This document shows, piece by piece, positions 33,754 through 40,576 of a stretch of DNA of 64,000 bases. The notes under the pieces were generated by a model. The model had not been told where the DNA came from, searched no databases, and saw only the letters and a program-made list of their open reading frames with translations. Origin of the DNA: Arcobacter sp. (GTDB lineage: Bacteria; Campylobacterota; Campylobacteria; Campylobacterales; Arcobacteraceae); contig PKUJ01000016.1 of the NCBI GenBank assembly GCA_002869565.1, positions 62,001 to 126,000 on the forward strand, read 5' to 3'. Each line of letters begins with the position of its first letter. The stretch's first letter is position 1. Position numbers and translations under genes: made by a program.

Positions 33754-33785
33754 AAGCCAAGTAAGTATATAATTTACTTGGCTTT
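33754..33785 (+). terminator. Terminator of argG
   Basis: A perfect 11-bp stem AAGCCAAGTAA/TTACTTGGCTT (33754-33764 with 33774-33784) with a 9-base loop follows the argG stop. The T run after it is short, so efficiency is uncertain. Confidence 0.6.
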
Positions 33786-33835: not shown

Positions 33836-34933
33836 TTGAACTACTTAAAAGATTTAGAAACTATTATTAATATAAACTCTTATACACAAAATAAAAATGG
33901 CGTAGATGAAGTTGGTAAATATATGACCAAATGGTTAAATGAACTTGGCTTTGAAACAAAAGTATATGAAAGAGAACTTCTTGGGGACCATTTACTTTTT
34001 AAAACACCTAAAATAGATGGACCAAAAATACTTCTACTAGGTCATAATGATACAGTTTTTCCACAAGGTTATTTTGAAGAATTTAAAGAAGATGATGAAT
34101 GGGTCTATGGACCTGGTGTTTGTGATATGAAAGGTGGGAATATTGTAGCATTGCAAGCACTAAGAAACATTTTCAAAGAAAATACTGAACTATTTAATAT
34201 AGATTTTTTACTTGTTTCTGACGAAGAAACCGGAAGTGATGATTCGAAAGAAGTAAGCTCTTCAATTGCAAAAGATTATGACTACTGTTTTGTTTTTGAA
34301 GCTGCTGGAGAAAACTTAGAAGTAGTTACTTCAAGAAAAGGTGTGGGAAGATATATTATTAATATTGAAGGAAAAGCAAGCCATGCGGGTACTTCATATA
34401 AAAAAGGCATAAATGCCAATCTTGAAGGTGCGATAAAACTTCAAAAGTATTCTGAATTAATTAACCTTGAAGAAGGGACTATTGTAAATGTAGGAAAAAT
34501 GGAAGGAGGTATTGGGATAAATACTGTTTCTCCCCACTGCAATATGATGATGGAATTTAGATTTGATAAAAAGTCTGAGCAAAAAAGAGTTATGAAAGAA
34601 GTTGAAAAAATTACAGCTACATCTTATGTTGAAGGAACAAAATCTCACGCAGAAGGAATTATTCAAAGAGGTGTAATGGAAGAGAATGAAAATCAATTAA
34701 AACTTATCAAATTTTTTGAAGAATTAACTTCTCAATCTATTCCAAAAGAACGTAGAGGTGGAGTTAGTGATGCAAATATCATCGCTAGTTTTGGGGTTAC
34801 TACATTAGACGGATTTGGTCCATATGGGGATGGGGACCACACTATAAAAGAGAGAGCATTAAAAAGTTCTTTTGAGCAAAGAATAGAAATGATGACAAAA
34901 ATATTAAGGCATTATCAAAATAATAAGAAATAA
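33836..34933 (+). CDS. M20-family metallopeptidase, glutamate carboxypeptidase-like
   Basis: The 365-residue enzyme of the M20 clan has metal ligands His70 and Asp97 (LLGHNDTVF; GPGVCDMKGG), the DEETGSDD segment near 129-136 with the catalytic and bridging Glu, and a dimerisation domain with HAGTSYKKGINAN. Relatives such as carboxypeptidase G2 cleave C-terminal amino acids, often Glu, from small peptides or conjugates. There is no signal peptide, so it is cytoplasmic. The start is TTG with ribosome site AAAGGG 7 bases upstream. It is the first gene of a four-gene operon with two ligases and an M14 peptidase. Confidence 0.88.
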   Translation: MNYLKDLETIININSYTQNKNGVDEVGKYMTKWLNELGFETKVYERELLGDHLLFKTPKIDGPKILLLGHNDTVFPQGYFEEFKEDDEWVYGPGVCDMKGGNIVALQALRNIFKENTELFNIDFLLVSDEETGSDDSKEVSSSIAKDYDYCFVFEAAGENLEVVTSRKGVGRYIINIEGKASHAGTSYKKGINANLEGAIKLQKYSELINLEEGTIVNVGKMEGGIGINTVSPHCNMMMEFRFDKKSEQKRVMKEVEKITATSYVEGTKSHAEGIIQRGVMEENENQLKLIKFFEELTSQSIPKERRGGVSDANIIASFGVTTLDGFGPYGDGDHTIKERALKSSFEQRIEMMTKILRHYQNNKK

Positions 34934-34973
34934 AATCGTTTAAAATTAATAAAATTTAAATAGGAGTTCTAGT

Positions 34974-35873
34974 ATGGGAAAAAGAAAGATTGGAATGTGG
35001 TTATACCAAAATGGTGGAGGAGATGTTATCCAAGAAAAAATGATCAAACTATTAAATGAAAGAGATATTGAGGTAATACCTAATATAAACTTACGTGATG
35101 CAATTGCTAAAAATGGACATATATTATGGAATGATATCAAGCTAGATAAACTTGATCTATTTTTCTCATATAATGCAGGAGAACAAACTCAATACCAAAT
35201 GTATCTGTACAGAGCTTTAAACCGTGTAATCCCAATGATTAACTCTTTCGAAGCTTTTGAATTAACTGAAGACAAATTTCATACTTCATTTTTACTAAGA
35301 AAAAATAAAATTCAAACTGCAGATTATAAACTTTGTCATAGAGATGATAGTTATCATTTAAATGCTATTATTAAAAAATGGGACAAAATGGTATATAAAC
35401 CTACAGATGGTTGGGGTGGAGTTGGACTTACAAAAATAGAAAATCAAGAAACATTAGATATGTTAATTCCTTTTTTAAATCAAATGGATTTAAGATATTT
35501 CTATGTGGAAAAATTTATCAATTATGATAACACTGATTATAGAGTAGATATTGTAGATGGACAATTTGTTGGTTGTTATGGAAGAAAAGCAGGAGGAAGT
35601 GACTGGAGAACTAATATAACAAGTGGAGGAAGTGTATTTGTAAGAGAACCAAATGAAGATGTAATCAAATTGGCACTAGATGCTGCTAAAGTTACGGGAC
35701 TAGATATTGCTGGTGTTGATATAATTTATGATAAAGATAAAGAAAAATATGTTGTATTAGAAGTAAATGGAATACCTGCATTTGCAACTCCAGAACAAGA
35801 AAAACTTGGATTAAACTTTAATGATAAGAAAATAGAATTAATCGTAGATTTAATAGATAAAAAAACAAAATAA
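34974..35873 (+). CDS. RimK-like ATP-grasp ligase
   Basis: The 299-residue ATP-grasp enzyme has the phosphate loop KPTDGWGGVG near residues 141-150, a YVEKFI hinge near 177, DYRVDIV near 187, DWRTNITSGGS near 210-220 and the metal site VLEVNG near 261. The last three elements follow the order in RimK and LysX, which form amide bonds between a carboxylate and an amino group using ATP. The substrate-binding N-terminal part (VIPNINLRDAI) gives no clue to specificity. It lies 40 bases after the M20 peptidase and 25 before a second ATP-grasp gene. Confidence 0.87.
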   Translation: MGKRKIGMWLYQNGGGDVIQEKMIKLLNERDIEVIPNINLRDAIAKNGHILWNDIKLDKLDLFFSYNAGEQTQYQMYLYRALNRVIPMINSFEAFELTEDKFHTSFLLRKNKIQTADYKLCHRDDSYHLNAIIKKWDKMVYKPTDGWGGVGLTKIENQETLDMLIPFLNQMDLRYFYVEKFINYDNTDYRVDIVDGQFVGCYGRKAGGSDWRTNITSGGSVFVREPNEDVIKLALDAAKVTGLDIAGVDIIYDKDKEKYVVLEVNGIPAFATPEQEKLGLNFNDKKIELIVDLIDKKTK

Positions 35874-35898
35874 TTTAATAAAACAAAAGGAAAAGAAT

Positions 35899-37401
35899 AT
35901 GAGTAAATTGCCAAAGTTAGGATTTTTATATCTTGATTATGTATTAAGATTTTTTGATCATTCAAATTTCAAGGGATGGCCAAATAAAATAGAAAGTGTA
36001 ACTTATCACTGGAAAAATGATAAAAAAAGATTTATAAAAGAAGTAAAAAATAAAAAAATTGATATTTTAATTGGTAATATTCCAGCAACAGCTTATGATA
36101 CTTTTGTAGAAATATCTAAAGAACTTCCAAATGTAAGGTTTGTTCCATCGCTAGAGACTCAATTTCCTAATAAATCTAAAGAGAATGTTACACTTTTTTG
36201 TAATAAATATAAACTTTCAGCTCCGTATACTAAAATTTACTATGACAAAAAGAAAGGATATGATTATTTAAAAAATAAAGCAAAATATCCTCAGATTATA
36301 AAAAGATCTTATGGTCCATCAAATTATGGGGGATATTATGTTCATAAAGCTGATAATTTTAAAGAAGCAAAAGCTTTATTAGATAAAGAAAAATATAACC
36401 CTATTTATACTCAAGATGCAATCGATTTAAAATTTTCTGGTGATTTAAGAGTTATGTTGATTGGACATAAACCAGTTTGTGCTTTTTGGAGATTTTCAGG
36501 AGAAGGAGAATGGATTACAAATACATCTCAAGGTGGTTCAATGTCATACGAAAATGTTCCTATGAATGCACTTGAACTAGCTGTTGAAGCTTCTAAAGCT
36601 GCAAAAGCAGAATATTGGGCTTGTGATATTGCAATTGATGCAAAAAATGACAAAGCTTATATTTTGGAATGTGCAACTGCATTTGCTGCTTTCCCATATA
36701 TTAGAGATTGGATTTGTCAGTACTTAATGTGGGACTTTTCAAATGGAAAATTCAAAATGCCACATGTACCATTATTTTCATGGGAAGAGTTAGGAAAAAT
36801 TGATTCTTCATTATTAAGAACGATGAGACATATTGGATTTAGTAAATATAAACCATCTTGTGATGGAACTTGGTATATAAATGATAAAGTAGATGAATTT
36901 GATATGGAAAAAGCTGAATTAAGTGATCCAAGTGATGTTCCAGAATCTATTGAACCAAAAGATTTACCAATTTTTAAGGATTTAGAGAAAGATGCTAAGC
37001 ATGATAATTTTAAAATTAGTAAAATTAATTTAAATTCTGCTTCATTAACAGATATTATGACTCTTCACGCTATGGAAGAAGATTTAGCATTAGAGATTCA
37101 TGAGTATCTAGAAGACAATATAGTAACTGATTCTAGTGACTTATTAGAATTAGAATCTATAGATCAACAAATGTTAGAAACATGGAATAATCATCTTGAT
37201 GATATGAGAATTGATATAAATGAAGCGGATGAAAATACTTTAAAGAAAATCAAAGGTATTGGTGCTAAACTTGCAAAAATCATTTTAGATTTTAAAAATA
37301 AAAATAAATACTTTAAAAGTTTAGATGAGCTAAAAGAAATTGATGGTATTGGAAAAAATAAACTAGCTCAATTAAAATCTAGACTAAAAATAGGAGAATA
37401 A
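35899..37401 (+). CDS. ATP-grasp ligase fused to ComEA-like helix-hairpin-helix repeats
   Basis: Residues 1 to about 310 form a second, divergent RimK-like ATP-grasp: KRSYGPSNYGGYYV (Gly loop) near 134, DLRVMLIG near 189, WITNTSQGGSM near 206, and ACDIAID with YILECAT as metal site, where the usual ExN is EC-A. A linker with an acidic patch follows. Residues 374-500 hold two helix-hairpin-helix units (KINLNSASLTDIMTLHAME; INEADENTLKKIKGIG ... IDGIGKNKL) like ComEA, which bind DNA or act as protein docking modules. This fusion is unusual. It is cytoplasmic by sequence. The next gene starts 3 bases after its stop, using a ribosome site inside this gene. Confidence 0.85.
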   Translation: MSKLPKLGFLYLDYVLRFFDHSNFKGWPNKIESVTYHWKNDKKRFIKEVKNKKIDILIGNIPATAYDTFVEISKELPNVRFVPSLETQFPNKSKENVTLFCNKYKLSAPYTKIYYDKKKGYDYLKNKAKYPQIIKRSYGPSNYGGYYVHKADNFKEAKALLDKEKYNPIYTQDAIDLKFSGDLRVMLIGHKPVCAFWRFSGEGEWITNTSQGGSMSYENVPMNALELAVEASKAAKAEYWACDIAIDAKNDKAYILECATAFAAFPYIRDWICQYLMWDFSNGKFKMPHVPLFSWEELGKIDSSLLRTMRHIGFSKYKPSCDGTWYINDKVDEFDMEKAELSDPSDVPESIEPKDLPIFKDLEKDAKHDNFKISKINLNSASLTDIMTLHAMEEDLALEIHEYLEDNIVTDSSDLLELESIDQQMLETWNNHLDDMRIDINEADENTLKKIKGIGAKLAKIILDFKNKNKYFKSLDELKEIDGIGKNKLAQLKSRLKIGE

Positions 37402-37404
37402 CTT

Positions 37405-39993
37405 TTGAAGGAACTATATCGATCGTATGATGAATCAACTGAAATTTTTAAAAAGTTTCAGGAGAAATATCCAAGTAATTTTAAATTAGAATCTATTGGA
37501 GAAACTTGGGAAAAGAGAGATATAAACCTAATAACAATTACAAAAGATATCAGTAGTGCAGATAAAAATCCTGCACTATTTTTTACAGGAACTATTCATG
37601 CTAGGGAATGGGTAGGACATGAATTAGCAATAGAATTTACTACATACATTTTAGAAAATTTGGATACTGATCCAACATTACAATCCTATCTTAAAAATAC
37701 GACTATATACATGGTCCCTTGTGCAAATCCTGATGGATATGAATACTCTAAAAACCATTTCTCTTTTTGGAGAAAAAATAGAAGAGTAAATGCTGATGGT
37801 TCATATGGAGTTGACTTAAATAGAAATTTTCCTATTGGTTATGTAAAATCAACCGCCACGACTTCAAATGTATATGGTGGACCAGAGCCATTTTCTGAGC
37901 CTGAAACAAGAGCTTTAAGAGACTTTGTTGAAGCCCATGAAAACATAACTATCGCACTTGATTACCATTCTCAAGGAAATGTATTTTTTCCAGCACATGA
38001 CTTTAGACATGAAGATACAATTGATACTACAGATATGAATACACTTTGTGCAAATATGGCAGAAGAGATTAGAAAAATATCCGGACGAGAATATGGAATT
38101 CATCAAGGGAAACCACCTACAAAACTGATTTCAGGTAGTGGTAGAGAATTTTATCACTCTATGGGAATTATATCATCTGTGGTTGAAGTAGGTACTAGAA
38201 ATATCTCTGATTATATGGATGATATGAATGAAAATTTAAGAGAACATATACCTGCTTTACTAGCAGCAATTAAAGAGGTTCCAAATTATTCAAAAAACAA
38301 TTCTGTTTCTAGAGTAAATTCTTTTGAAATTACTGAAATTGGTTCCCACCATGTTAATTTAAAGTGGGATTATGAAGTAAATAAAGATGTTTTCTTCGAA
38401 ATTTATAGAAGTGAAAAAGATAAGAGATTTTGTAATGCATCTAATTTAATTGCAAAAACTAAAAGCTTAGAATTTAGTGATATTAATTTATCATCTAATA
38501 GAGATTATTATTACAATATTAGAGTAGTAAATAAAAAAACTTTTGAAAAATCTCCATTCTATCCTCAAATCAAACTTAGAACAGATTGTGATTATGATGA
38601 ATTTAGTCGTACATATTACGCAAACTCTAAAGATACGGGTTATGTTGCTGAAAATTTAAATGATAATAGTAAACATTTTGGTGTTAATTCATTATTTGTT
38701 GGAATAGACGAAAATAAAGGTGTTTCATACGCAATTGTTACTGTTAATGTAAAATCATTAGGTGAAAATGCACTTATAAAAAATGCTTCATTTAATTTAT
38801 ACCCTATTAATAGAGTTTCTACAACTATTGAAAAATTTGGTGAATGGAATGTGGGAATTGTAAATCAAGAAACAATGGGAGACATTACAAATTATGATGA
38901 TGTTGATAATATGGAGATACTACAATATGTAGGAAGACCAACAGAATCACATCAATTGACACAAGGTATTTGGAGAAATTGGAAATTATCAGGGATGGAG
39001 TGTAAAGTACTTCAAGATGTAGCTTCAAAATATGAAAAAATTGTATTTAGAGTGGAAGGACCAAAAGAGTTAATTATTGGACGTACTCGACAAATGATGC
39101 AATGGGATTTAGGTTATGGAAAATTTGGTTCAGGATTACCATTTAGACCAAGACTTGAAATAACATATACAATCAAACCTACAATCACTGAACTCTATCC
39201 AAAAGCTGTGTATACAGTAGGTAACAATGAAGTTAAACCTGATGAAATCACAGCAGGATACGATATAGATGGTAAAAAGATTTATTCTACATTTGAATTT
39301 AATTTGTCTTCCCTACCCCCATATAGTAGTACAATGATTACAAAAGCTTATTTTGAATTGAACTCTACAAAAATCTATATAAAAGATGATATTAGATTCC
39401 ATTTAGAGTTTGTAGATGAGAATATAAACCAAGATTACGAGAGTATTACAAATAGAGAAATTATTCAAAATATTGGTTATGATGTAAGTGCAACCGAACT
39501 TAAAAACAATCAAACACAACATTTCCCTTTTGATAGTTTTTCTGAAATTACATTAAATGAAAAATTAAAAAACAAATCAGATATTGCATTTGTTCTTAAA
39601 CCAACATCATCTAAAAAAGCTAATAAAGATAAAAGTGTATCTTGGGAAGTTAAGAATCAAGCACTATCTCCAAAACTTATTATTGAACATATCCCTAAAA
39701 GAAGATTTCCTTTAGAAAAAGTCAATAATGTAAAACTTTCACAAGAGAATGGCAAGATTAAAATCACTTGGGATAAACCAGATGATCCAGATTTAAGAGG
39801 TGTAAAAGTAATTAAAAATGCTTATAGAAAGCCCTATTCTACCCATGATGGTCAAAAACTTTATGCAGGATTAGATAACTACACATATGATGATTTCGGA
39901 GCAAAAGATATAGATAAATTTTATGCAATTTTTGCATATGATGAAGTGCCAAACTATTCAAAACCTGTAATAATTGAATACAAAGCAAAATAA
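37405..39993 (+). CDS. Large M14 zinc carboxypeptidase with fibronectin-III and DNRLRE-like domains
   Basis: The 862-residue protein has an N-terminal M14 catalytic domain (about 1-280): zinc ligands His65, Glu68 and His188 (HAREWVGHE; DYHSQGN), substrate Arg in LNRNF near 138, and probable catalytic Glu261 (VVEVGTRN). Then come a fibronectin-III-like module (about 305-395), two DNRLRE-like beta domains (about 405-600 and 610-770) and another fibronectin-like module at the end. Such domains are usually extracellular, yet no signal peptide exists; the start is TTG at 37405 with AGGAG 8 bases upstream. It probably removes C-terminal residues from a peptide or protein. It is last in the ligase operon and ends in a strong hairpin. 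Confidence 0.87.
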   Translation: MKELYRSYDESTEIFKKFQEKYPSNFKLESIGETWEKRDINLITITKDISSADKNPALFFTGTIHAREWVGHELAIEFTTYILENLDTDPTLQSYLKNTTIYMVPCANPDGYEYSKNHFSFWRKNRRVNADGSYGVDLNRNFPIGYVKSTATTSNVYGGPEPFSEPETRALRDFVEAHENITIALDYHSQGNVFFPAHDFRHEDTIDTTDMNTLCANMAEEIRKISGREYGIHQGKPPTKLISGSGREFYHSMGIISSVVEVGTRNISDYMDDMNENLREHIPALLAAIKEVPNYSKNNSVSRVNSFEITEIGSHHVNLKWDYEVNKDVFFEIYRSEKDKRFCNASNLIAKTKSLEFSDINLSSNRDYYYNIRVVNKKTFEKSPFYPQIKLRTDCDYDEFSRTYYANSKDTGYVAENLNDNSKHFGVNSLFVGIDENKGVSYAIVTVNVKSLGENALIKNASFNLYPINRVSTTIEKFGEWNVGIVNQETMGDITNYDDVDNMEILQYVGRPTESHQLTQGIWRNWKLSGMECKVLQDVASKYEKIVFRVEGPKELIIGRTRQMMQWDLGYGKFGSGLPFRPRLEITYTIKPTITELYPKAVYTVGNNEVKPDEITAGYDIDGKKIYSTFEFNLSSLPPYSSTMITKAYFELNSTKIYIKDDIRFHLEFVDENINQDYESITNREIIQNIGYDVSATELKNNQTQHFPFDSFSEITLNEKLKNKSDIAFVLKPTSSKKANKDKSVSWEVKNQALSPKLIIEHIPKRRFPLEKVNNVKLSQENGKIKITWDKPDDPDLRGVKVIKNAYRKPYSTHDGQKLYAGLDNYTYDDFGAKDIDKFYAIFAYDEVPNYSKPVIIEYKAK

Positions 39994-40014
39994 GACTTTT
40001 GTCTTATTTTGCTT
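39983..40014 (+). terminator. Terminator of the ATP-grasp/peptidase operon
   Basis: A perfect 14-bp stem (39983-39996 with 40001-40014, AAGCAAAATAAGAC and complement) with loop TTTT begins within the last codons of the M14 gene and is followed by a T-rich tract. Confidence 0.85.
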
Positions 40015-40075: not shown

Positions 40076-40576
40076 ATGATAATGAAATTTAAAGAATTTT
40101 ATCCAAAGATTAGTTCTTCTGCTTGGATAGCTCCAAGTGCAGATGTTATAGGGAATGTTGTTATTGGTGAAAACTCATCTGTATGGTTTCAATGTGTAAT
40201 TCGTTCAGATGTAAATGAAGTGATAATTGGGAAAAATACAAATATCCAAGATTTATCCATGATACACACTGATACAAATACAAAAACAATTTTAGGTAAT
40301 AATGTAACCATTGGGCATAAAGTTATGTTACATGGCTGTACAATTGAAGATAATTGCCTTATAGGAATGAGTGCAACCATTCTTGACAATGCAGTTATAG
40401 GCGAAGGTTCAATTGTAGGTGCAAATTCATTAGTTACTTCAGGAAAAAAATTTCCACCAAGAAGTTTGATTATGGGCAGTCCTGCTAAAGTTGTAAGAGA
40501 ATTAACACAAGAAGATGTTAATGGCCTAATTAGACATGCTGAGCATTATGTAGAGTATAAAAATGATTACTCATAA
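40076..40576 (+). CDS. Gamma-class carbonic anhydrase-like hexapeptide-repeat protein
   Basis: The 166-residue left-handed beta-helix protein has hexapeptide repeats through most of its length (IGNVVIGENSSVWF, IIGKNTNIQD) and metal-binding His residues in SMIHTDT and TIGHKVMLHGC. This fits the gamma carbonic anhydrase/YrdA group, which hydrates CO2 or acts in related zinc chemistry; many members are of unproven activity. The ATG at 40076 has AGGA 7 bases upstream; a second Met two codons later is possible. It is a single gene closed by a bidirectional hairpin. Confidence 0.85.
   Translation: MIMKFKEFYPKISSSAWIAPSADVIGNVVIGENSSVWFQCVIRSDVNEVIIGKNTNIQDLSMIHTDTNTKTILGNNVTIGHKVMLHGCTIEDNCLIGMSATILDNAVIGEGSIVGANSLVTSGKKFPPRSLIMGSPAKVVRELTQEDVNGLIRHAEHYVEYKNDYS

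Follow-up and report, generated by a model that had tools for sequence, protein, structure and literature searches.

A mobile four-gene module of RimK-type ATP-grasp ligases and zinc carboxypeptidases in Campylobacterota and other bacteria, and its possible role in reversible amino-acid tagging

A window of 64,000 nucleotides from the genome of an Arcobacter sp. (contig PKUJ01000016.1) contains four adjacent genes encoding an M20 metallopeptidase, two RimK-type ATP-grasp ligases (LigA and LigB), and an M14 zinc carboxypeptidase. These genes make up a genuine mobile module, which keeps the same gene order amid changing flanks and is inherited nearly all-or-none as a functionally linked unit. 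The protein families are consistent with the addition and removal of C-terminal, possibly acidic, residues. We tentatively favor a self-contained cytoplasmic system of reversible amino-acid tagging, in which the ligases would attach acidic residues, with glutamate the most probable, to some acceptor inside the cell, and the M14 and M20 enzymes would take them off again; we rate this reading at a little short of an even chance.

Organization of the Gene Set

All four genes lie on the plus strand, and the open reading frames matched the positions and spacings of the first-pass annotation exactly. The M20 metallopeptidase, which is carboxypeptidase G2-like, is encoded at positions 33836–34933 (365 residues, TTG start), LigA at 34974–35873 (299 residues), LigB with its C-terminal helix-hairpin-helix region at 35899–37401 (500 residues), and the M14 carboxypeptidase at 37405–39993 (862 residues, TTG start), with intergenic gaps of 40, 25, and 3 bases. 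A hairpin with a 9-bp stem was read from the sequence after argG, upstream of the operon (33756–33782, plus strand). The 14-bp hairpin reported at the operon end was located by computation at 39983–40014 on the plus strand, with 14 pairs and a T-rich tail. Terminator-like sites numbered 5 in the region compared with 1.2 expected from shuffles, and promoter-like sites were not enriched (39 compared with 40.7 in shuffled sequence). The proposal of a single transcript was supported, in that the four genes are likely one transcription unit. The −10-like box invoked for it is weak by this count and was placed by position. A candidate TATAAT-like box also lies a little upstream of the M20 gene in several relatives. 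The search for riboswitches and known RNAs found none.

On the 3′ side of the operon, the window holds a hexapeptide-repeat (gamma carbonic anhydrase-like) gene at 40076–40576. Most Arcobacteraceae have this gene next after the operon, but it is seldom found there in other carriers and for that reason probably lies outside the module.

Conservation and Distribution

Gene order was compared in 80 loci with LigB, drawn from a species-level genome collection. The order M20-LigA-LigB-M14 was found on one strand in 45 of the 80 loci, and the M20 gene was divergent in 7 more. The remaining loci were partial (many of them near contig ends), had one of the genes duplicated, lost, or disrupted, or contained LigB alone. 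In 62 of 63 pairs, LigA and LigB were separated by no more than 60 bp. This collinear order is far beyond chance. Carriers in Campylobacterota include Arcobacter, Poseidonibacter, Malaciobacter, Sulfurospirillum arcachonense, Sulfurimonas, Hydrogenimonas, and Nitratifractor; the module is also present in some Gammaproteobacteria and Desulfuromonadales, with Thiomicrorhabdus, Desulfuromusa MAGs, and Photobacterium sp. DA100 as carriers beyond Campylobacterota. Photobacterium sp. DA100 has all four genes at 44–64% identity and keeps the M14 and LigB motifs. The first-pass annotation had suggested searching for the same order in other genomes and for conserved neighbors. The order spans three phyla and so is not confined to close relatives, and the flanks proved lineage-specific, with argG and the carbonic anhydrase-like gene in Arcobacter, rplS in Sulfurimonas, and other genes elsewhere. 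No fifth conserved gene, transporter, or regulator was found beside the set when flanking ORFs of at least 70 residues were compared.

Co-occurrence was assessed in 298 near-complete Campylobacterota genomes. LigB was present in 30 and the M14 protein in 31, and all 30 LigB genomes had the M14 protein (Fisher p = 2e-40, a value that overstates independence since the genomes, from 15 genera, are related). M20 and LigA were found at E < 1e-145 in 29 of the LigB genomes and, at that level, in 0 of 20 listed non-carriers. Some genomes are complete yet unlinked: LigB lies far from the other three genes in G039 and G159, and the M14 gene is on another contig in G275. The 1.3-Mb genome G022 has LigB and the M14 protein only, without LigA or M20. 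Because M20 and M14 enzymes belong to broad families, the genes might be no more than a loose housekeeping cluster, with peptide salvage peptidases beside unrelated ligases and no common substrate. Co-occurrence contradicts such a cluster, and the order kept across three phyla also speaks against it; we regard it as the least probable of the readings considered.

The flanks also bear on ribosomal peptide maturation. Graspetides are made by ATP-grasp ligases (PMC8939145), and the set could act in this manner on a precursor encoded elsewhere in the genome. As first reported, the gaps between the genes are too short to hold a precursor gene. No neighbor of at least 70 residues is conserved; around the set, across many flanks compared at that ORF length, there was no conserved precursor-sized ORF or exporter. 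A graspetide-like role is accordingly very improbable.

In the comparison of loci, L061 (Desulfuromonadales) falls within the Sulfurimonas clade next to Thiomicrorhabdus, a placement that may reflect either transfer or faulty binning; the loci from Desulfuromusa make up a separate branch. Judged from organism names, most of the carriers that have a name were isolated from marine or saline settings. KatG-like catalase-peroxidase genes occur near the module in L045 and L046 (Aliarcobacter MAGs, downstream of the M14 gene) and in Photobacterium (L158:1860-4094); this proximity may be coincidence.

The Ligases

The family assignments of the first-pass annotation were confirmed by Pfam matches to all four proteins. 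None of the four reached an NCBIfam cut-off, which leaves the set without a curated name in that library. LigA matched Pfam RimK at 9.6e-21, and its PDB matches were RimK and ArgX (best 3.9e-18). The motifs WRTN and LEVNGIPAF are intact, the latter with the E-V-N magnesium motif, so that LigA has W-R-T-N-x-x-x-G-G plus E-V-N as do RimK and ArgX, both of which are glutamate ligases. Its best NCBIfam match was MptN, which, like CofF, adds glutamate to a coenzyme; however, LigA scored far below the MptN cut-off (146.6 bits compared with 350), and no coenzyme genes are conserved with the set.

LigB matched Pfam RimK at 2.1e-14 and HHH_3 at 9.1e-23. The best fold matches of its AF2 model were ArgX, RimK, and LysX, with ArgX closest; both the RimK fold and the region that binds ATP are preserved. 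At the E-x-N site of RimK-type enzymes, LigB has an invariant ECATAFA motif (36667–36687, plus strand), in which the second magnesium ligand is changed from Asn to Ala; the standard ATP-grasp E-x-N magnesium-binding motif is absent from LigB. ECATAF was invariant in 81 sequences and again in a 72-sequence set, and it also occurs in Photobacterium. Because the magnesium-ligand Asn is replaced by Ala, catalysis by LigB is in doubt, and the protein may be non-catalytic. The ComEA-type helix-hairpin-helix of LigB comprises residues 437–496 (37207–37386, plus strand) and varies in length among relatives.

Resemblances of LigB and the M20 protein to LysX and LysK raise the alternative of amino-group carrier-protein chemistry, in which a ligase would load an amino acid onto a carrier protein such as LysW and, after processing, the M20 enzyme would release it. 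The LysX/ArgX-LysW-LysK systems likewise combine a RimK-type ligase with an M20 enzyme, LysK. LigB shares W-I-T-N-T-x-x-G-G with LysX and has a modeled fold nearest to ArgX, and NCBIfam PRK04443 (LysK) matched the M20 protein at 2e-9. This last match is below the LysK cut-off, however, and the LysX cut-off was missed as well; no LysW-like gene, kinase, reductase, aminotransferase, or other downstream biosynthetic enzyme is conserved in the flanks, and the additional M14 enzyme has no place in the LysW pathway. We consider carrier-protein chemistry improbable.

The Peptidases

The M20 protein matched Pfam Peptidase_M20 at 3.4e-19. Its best PDB match and nearest solved relative was carboxypeptidase G2 (1cg2, 5.3e-29, residues 4–356), a glutamate-removing enzyme. 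The metal ligands are all kept, and these and the general base (His-70, Asp-72, Asp-97, Glu-130, Glu-131, Glu-155, and His-335) are invariant in relatives; the two proteins are nevertheless only distant relatives (104.6 bits over the whole length), and no export signal was seen in the M20 protein.

The M14 protein matched Pfam Peptidase_M14 at 4.5e-59. Its catalytic domain covers approximately residues 1–295 and is followed by fibronectin III and DNRLRE-like beta domains, which were found in 29 (fibronectin III) and 41 (DNRLRE) of 48 relatives. The DNRLRE-like domain (residues 595–760; 39187–39684, plus strand) scored 31.6 bits with NCBIfam NF033679 compared with a cut-off of 34. The AF2 model (pLDDT 86) has a fold matching carboxypeptidases A, T, O, and B. 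The zinc ligands His-65, Glu-68, and His-188, the residues Asn-139 and Arg-140, and the catalytic Glu-261 are invariant, so that the HxxE...H zinc site, NR motif, and catalytic Glu of M14 carboxypeptidases are all present. In agreement with the earlier statement that signal peptides are lacking, the listed M14 homologues start directly with the mature catalytic domain, apart from a short N-terminal stretch in two of 59 ORFs that probably reflects a start codon called too far upstream. For this reason the enzyme is most likely cytoplasmic.

The residue that might select the substrate is Arg-247 (38143–38145, plus strand), invariant in the motif SGSGREFY. It probably corresponds to specificity residue 255 of M14 carboxypeptidases, where Arg confers acidic specificity on carboxypeptidase O (PMC9925722). 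The two positions pair in one alignment, and the spacing of the motif (R-E-F compared with R-D-W) and a helix of the model that starts at residue 247 favor the pairing. An alignment that includes a Sinorhizobium outgroup opens a gap in which the pairing is lost, and model confidence is low around Arg-247. With the short pocket fragment alone, hhalign gave no significant match (E 0.22), and phmmer found no carboxypeptidase when given just the pocket region. Arg-247 may correspond to the acid-selecting residue of carboxypeptidase O, but the hint that it gives for glutamate appears weaker than at first sight, being alignment-dependent and in a low-confidence part of the model.

In G282, an orphan M14 gene (L115:4079-6676) lies in the argG slot and the other three genes are lost. 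Its pocket has drifted from GSGREFY to GSAKDYY (also read as GSAKDYYY), as expected if the M14 enzyme needs its partners.

Proposed Function and Comparison with Known Systems

The first-pass annotation had not recognized a described pathway, and no match emerged from the profile libraries or literature searched. No paper on the four-gene combination was found in that literature; a mention in a 2009 amidoligase survey is possible. To our knowledge, bacteria offer hardly any example of a dedicated system that writes and erases amino-acid tags, apart from RimK/RimB. This pair is the nearest working bacterial analogue; in the RimABK system of Pseudomonas, RimK is the ligase and the glutamate tail of RpsF is shortened by the retropepsin RimB (PMC7343187, PMC11957791). 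Both systems have an ATP-grasp ligase, here RimK-type by Pfam family and fold, and a dedicated peptidase in one operon, which in RimABK serves reversible C-terminal glutamylation. The four-gene set is not a member, however: RimABK has one ligase and targets S6, whereas here there are two ligases, and M20 and M14 peptidases in an operon from which a RimB retropepsin-like protease is absent. The ligases have the Pfam RimK match and the RimK fold but missed the NCBIfam RimK subfamily cut-off of 143.4 (LigA 127.7, LigB 58.6).

A eukaryotic parallel is tubulin polyglutamylation, in which TTLL ligases are opposed by cytosolic carboxypeptidases (CCPs). There, too, several ATP-grasp-like ligases face more than one cytosolic M14-family carboxypeptidase. 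CCPs belong to another M14 subfamily, though, whereas the M14 enzyme of this set belongs to the carboxypeptidase A/B/O/T type; the M20 enzyme has no counterpart, and the two are not homologous as systems.

For the tagging reading, the steps would be as follows. LigA would activate a carboxylate of the acceptor with ATP and join to it an amino acid, most likely glutamate. LigB would add a second residue or linkage type, or dock the acceptor for LigA. The M14 enzyme would trim C-terminal acidic residues, its large beta-domain tail suggesting a bulky substrate, and the M20 enzyme would hydrolyze the remaining or released glutamyl amide. Glutamate as the residue, writing and erasing on one acceptor, and this division of roles are inferred. 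Glutamate is favored because the M20 protein is near carboxypeptidase G2, the LigA motifs are RimK/ArgX-like, and the M14 protein has Arg-247. Against the tagging model count the loss of the magnesium-binding Asn from LigB and the lack of LigA and M20 in G022.

Ribosomal protein S6 is the best-known target of the RimK ligase family. In an indirect comparison, by tail sequence only, of 15 carriers and 15 non-carriers, the S6 tails of carrier and non-carrier Arcobacteraceae were the same, mostly ending AAKKAN, which also counts against the model. The write-and-erase proposal of the first-pass annotation thus gained from the linked, conserved set and the fitting families, but S6 as target found no support and was set aside. 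As a candidate anti-phage defense, the set was likewise dropped; PADLOC assigned 0 families to the four proteins.

The main alternative is a small-molecule pathway, in which the ligases would build a non-ribosomal di- or tripeptide (an osmolyte, a chelator, or a thiol-like compound) and the M20 and M14 enzymes would recycle it, after the pattern of other metabolite operons that pair ATP-grasp enzymes with peptidases. ATP-grasp ligases often make small peptides, small amides are substrates of M20 enzymes, no acceptor protein gene is conserved beside the set, and the habitats of the named carriers would suit such a product. An 862-residue M14 enzyme with several beta domains appears excessive for a dipeptide, however, and no transporter or regulator accompanies the set. 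An osmolyte hint was sought in the distribution of ectoine synthase and abandoned, since the enzyme is not linked to the set, is not exclusive to carriers (5 of 30 LigB carriers have it), and bears no clear relation to the set. A metabolite pathway seems less likely than tagging but is a serious competitor to it.

The tagging reading can be narrowed to an undescribed bacterial form of reversible post-translational glutamylation, in which one ligase initiates, the other elongates or serves as an adaptor, and the two carboxypeptidases act as erasers. Its target would be some protein that is not S6, and it would have spread by transfer among marine bacteria. This narrower version is possible, with the balance tilting against it. 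If true, the module would represent a second, independent tagging design built from two ligases and two zinc carboxypeptidases; otherwise, it could be a new peptide metabolite pathway.

Ligase Divergence and Additional Copies

LigA sequences form two groups, a major one of 51 and a minor one of 17. Mirror correlations of distances were 0.75–0.85 among LigB, M14, and M20 and looser for LigA (0.49–0.55). Extra LigA copies, in tandem or near the operon, occur at L067:8513-10417, L047:14796-16162, and L049:7355-10534; the tandem copies of L067 represent one of each LigA group, and L047 also has a 145-residue LigB fragment. LigB alone, 472–477 residues long and away from the operon, was found at L108:2871-4301 and L110:723-2153 and in L109, L107, and L015, and in the last three it follows efp. 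A whole or partial copy of the operon is present as well in the MAGs of L108 and L110 (L078 and L076).
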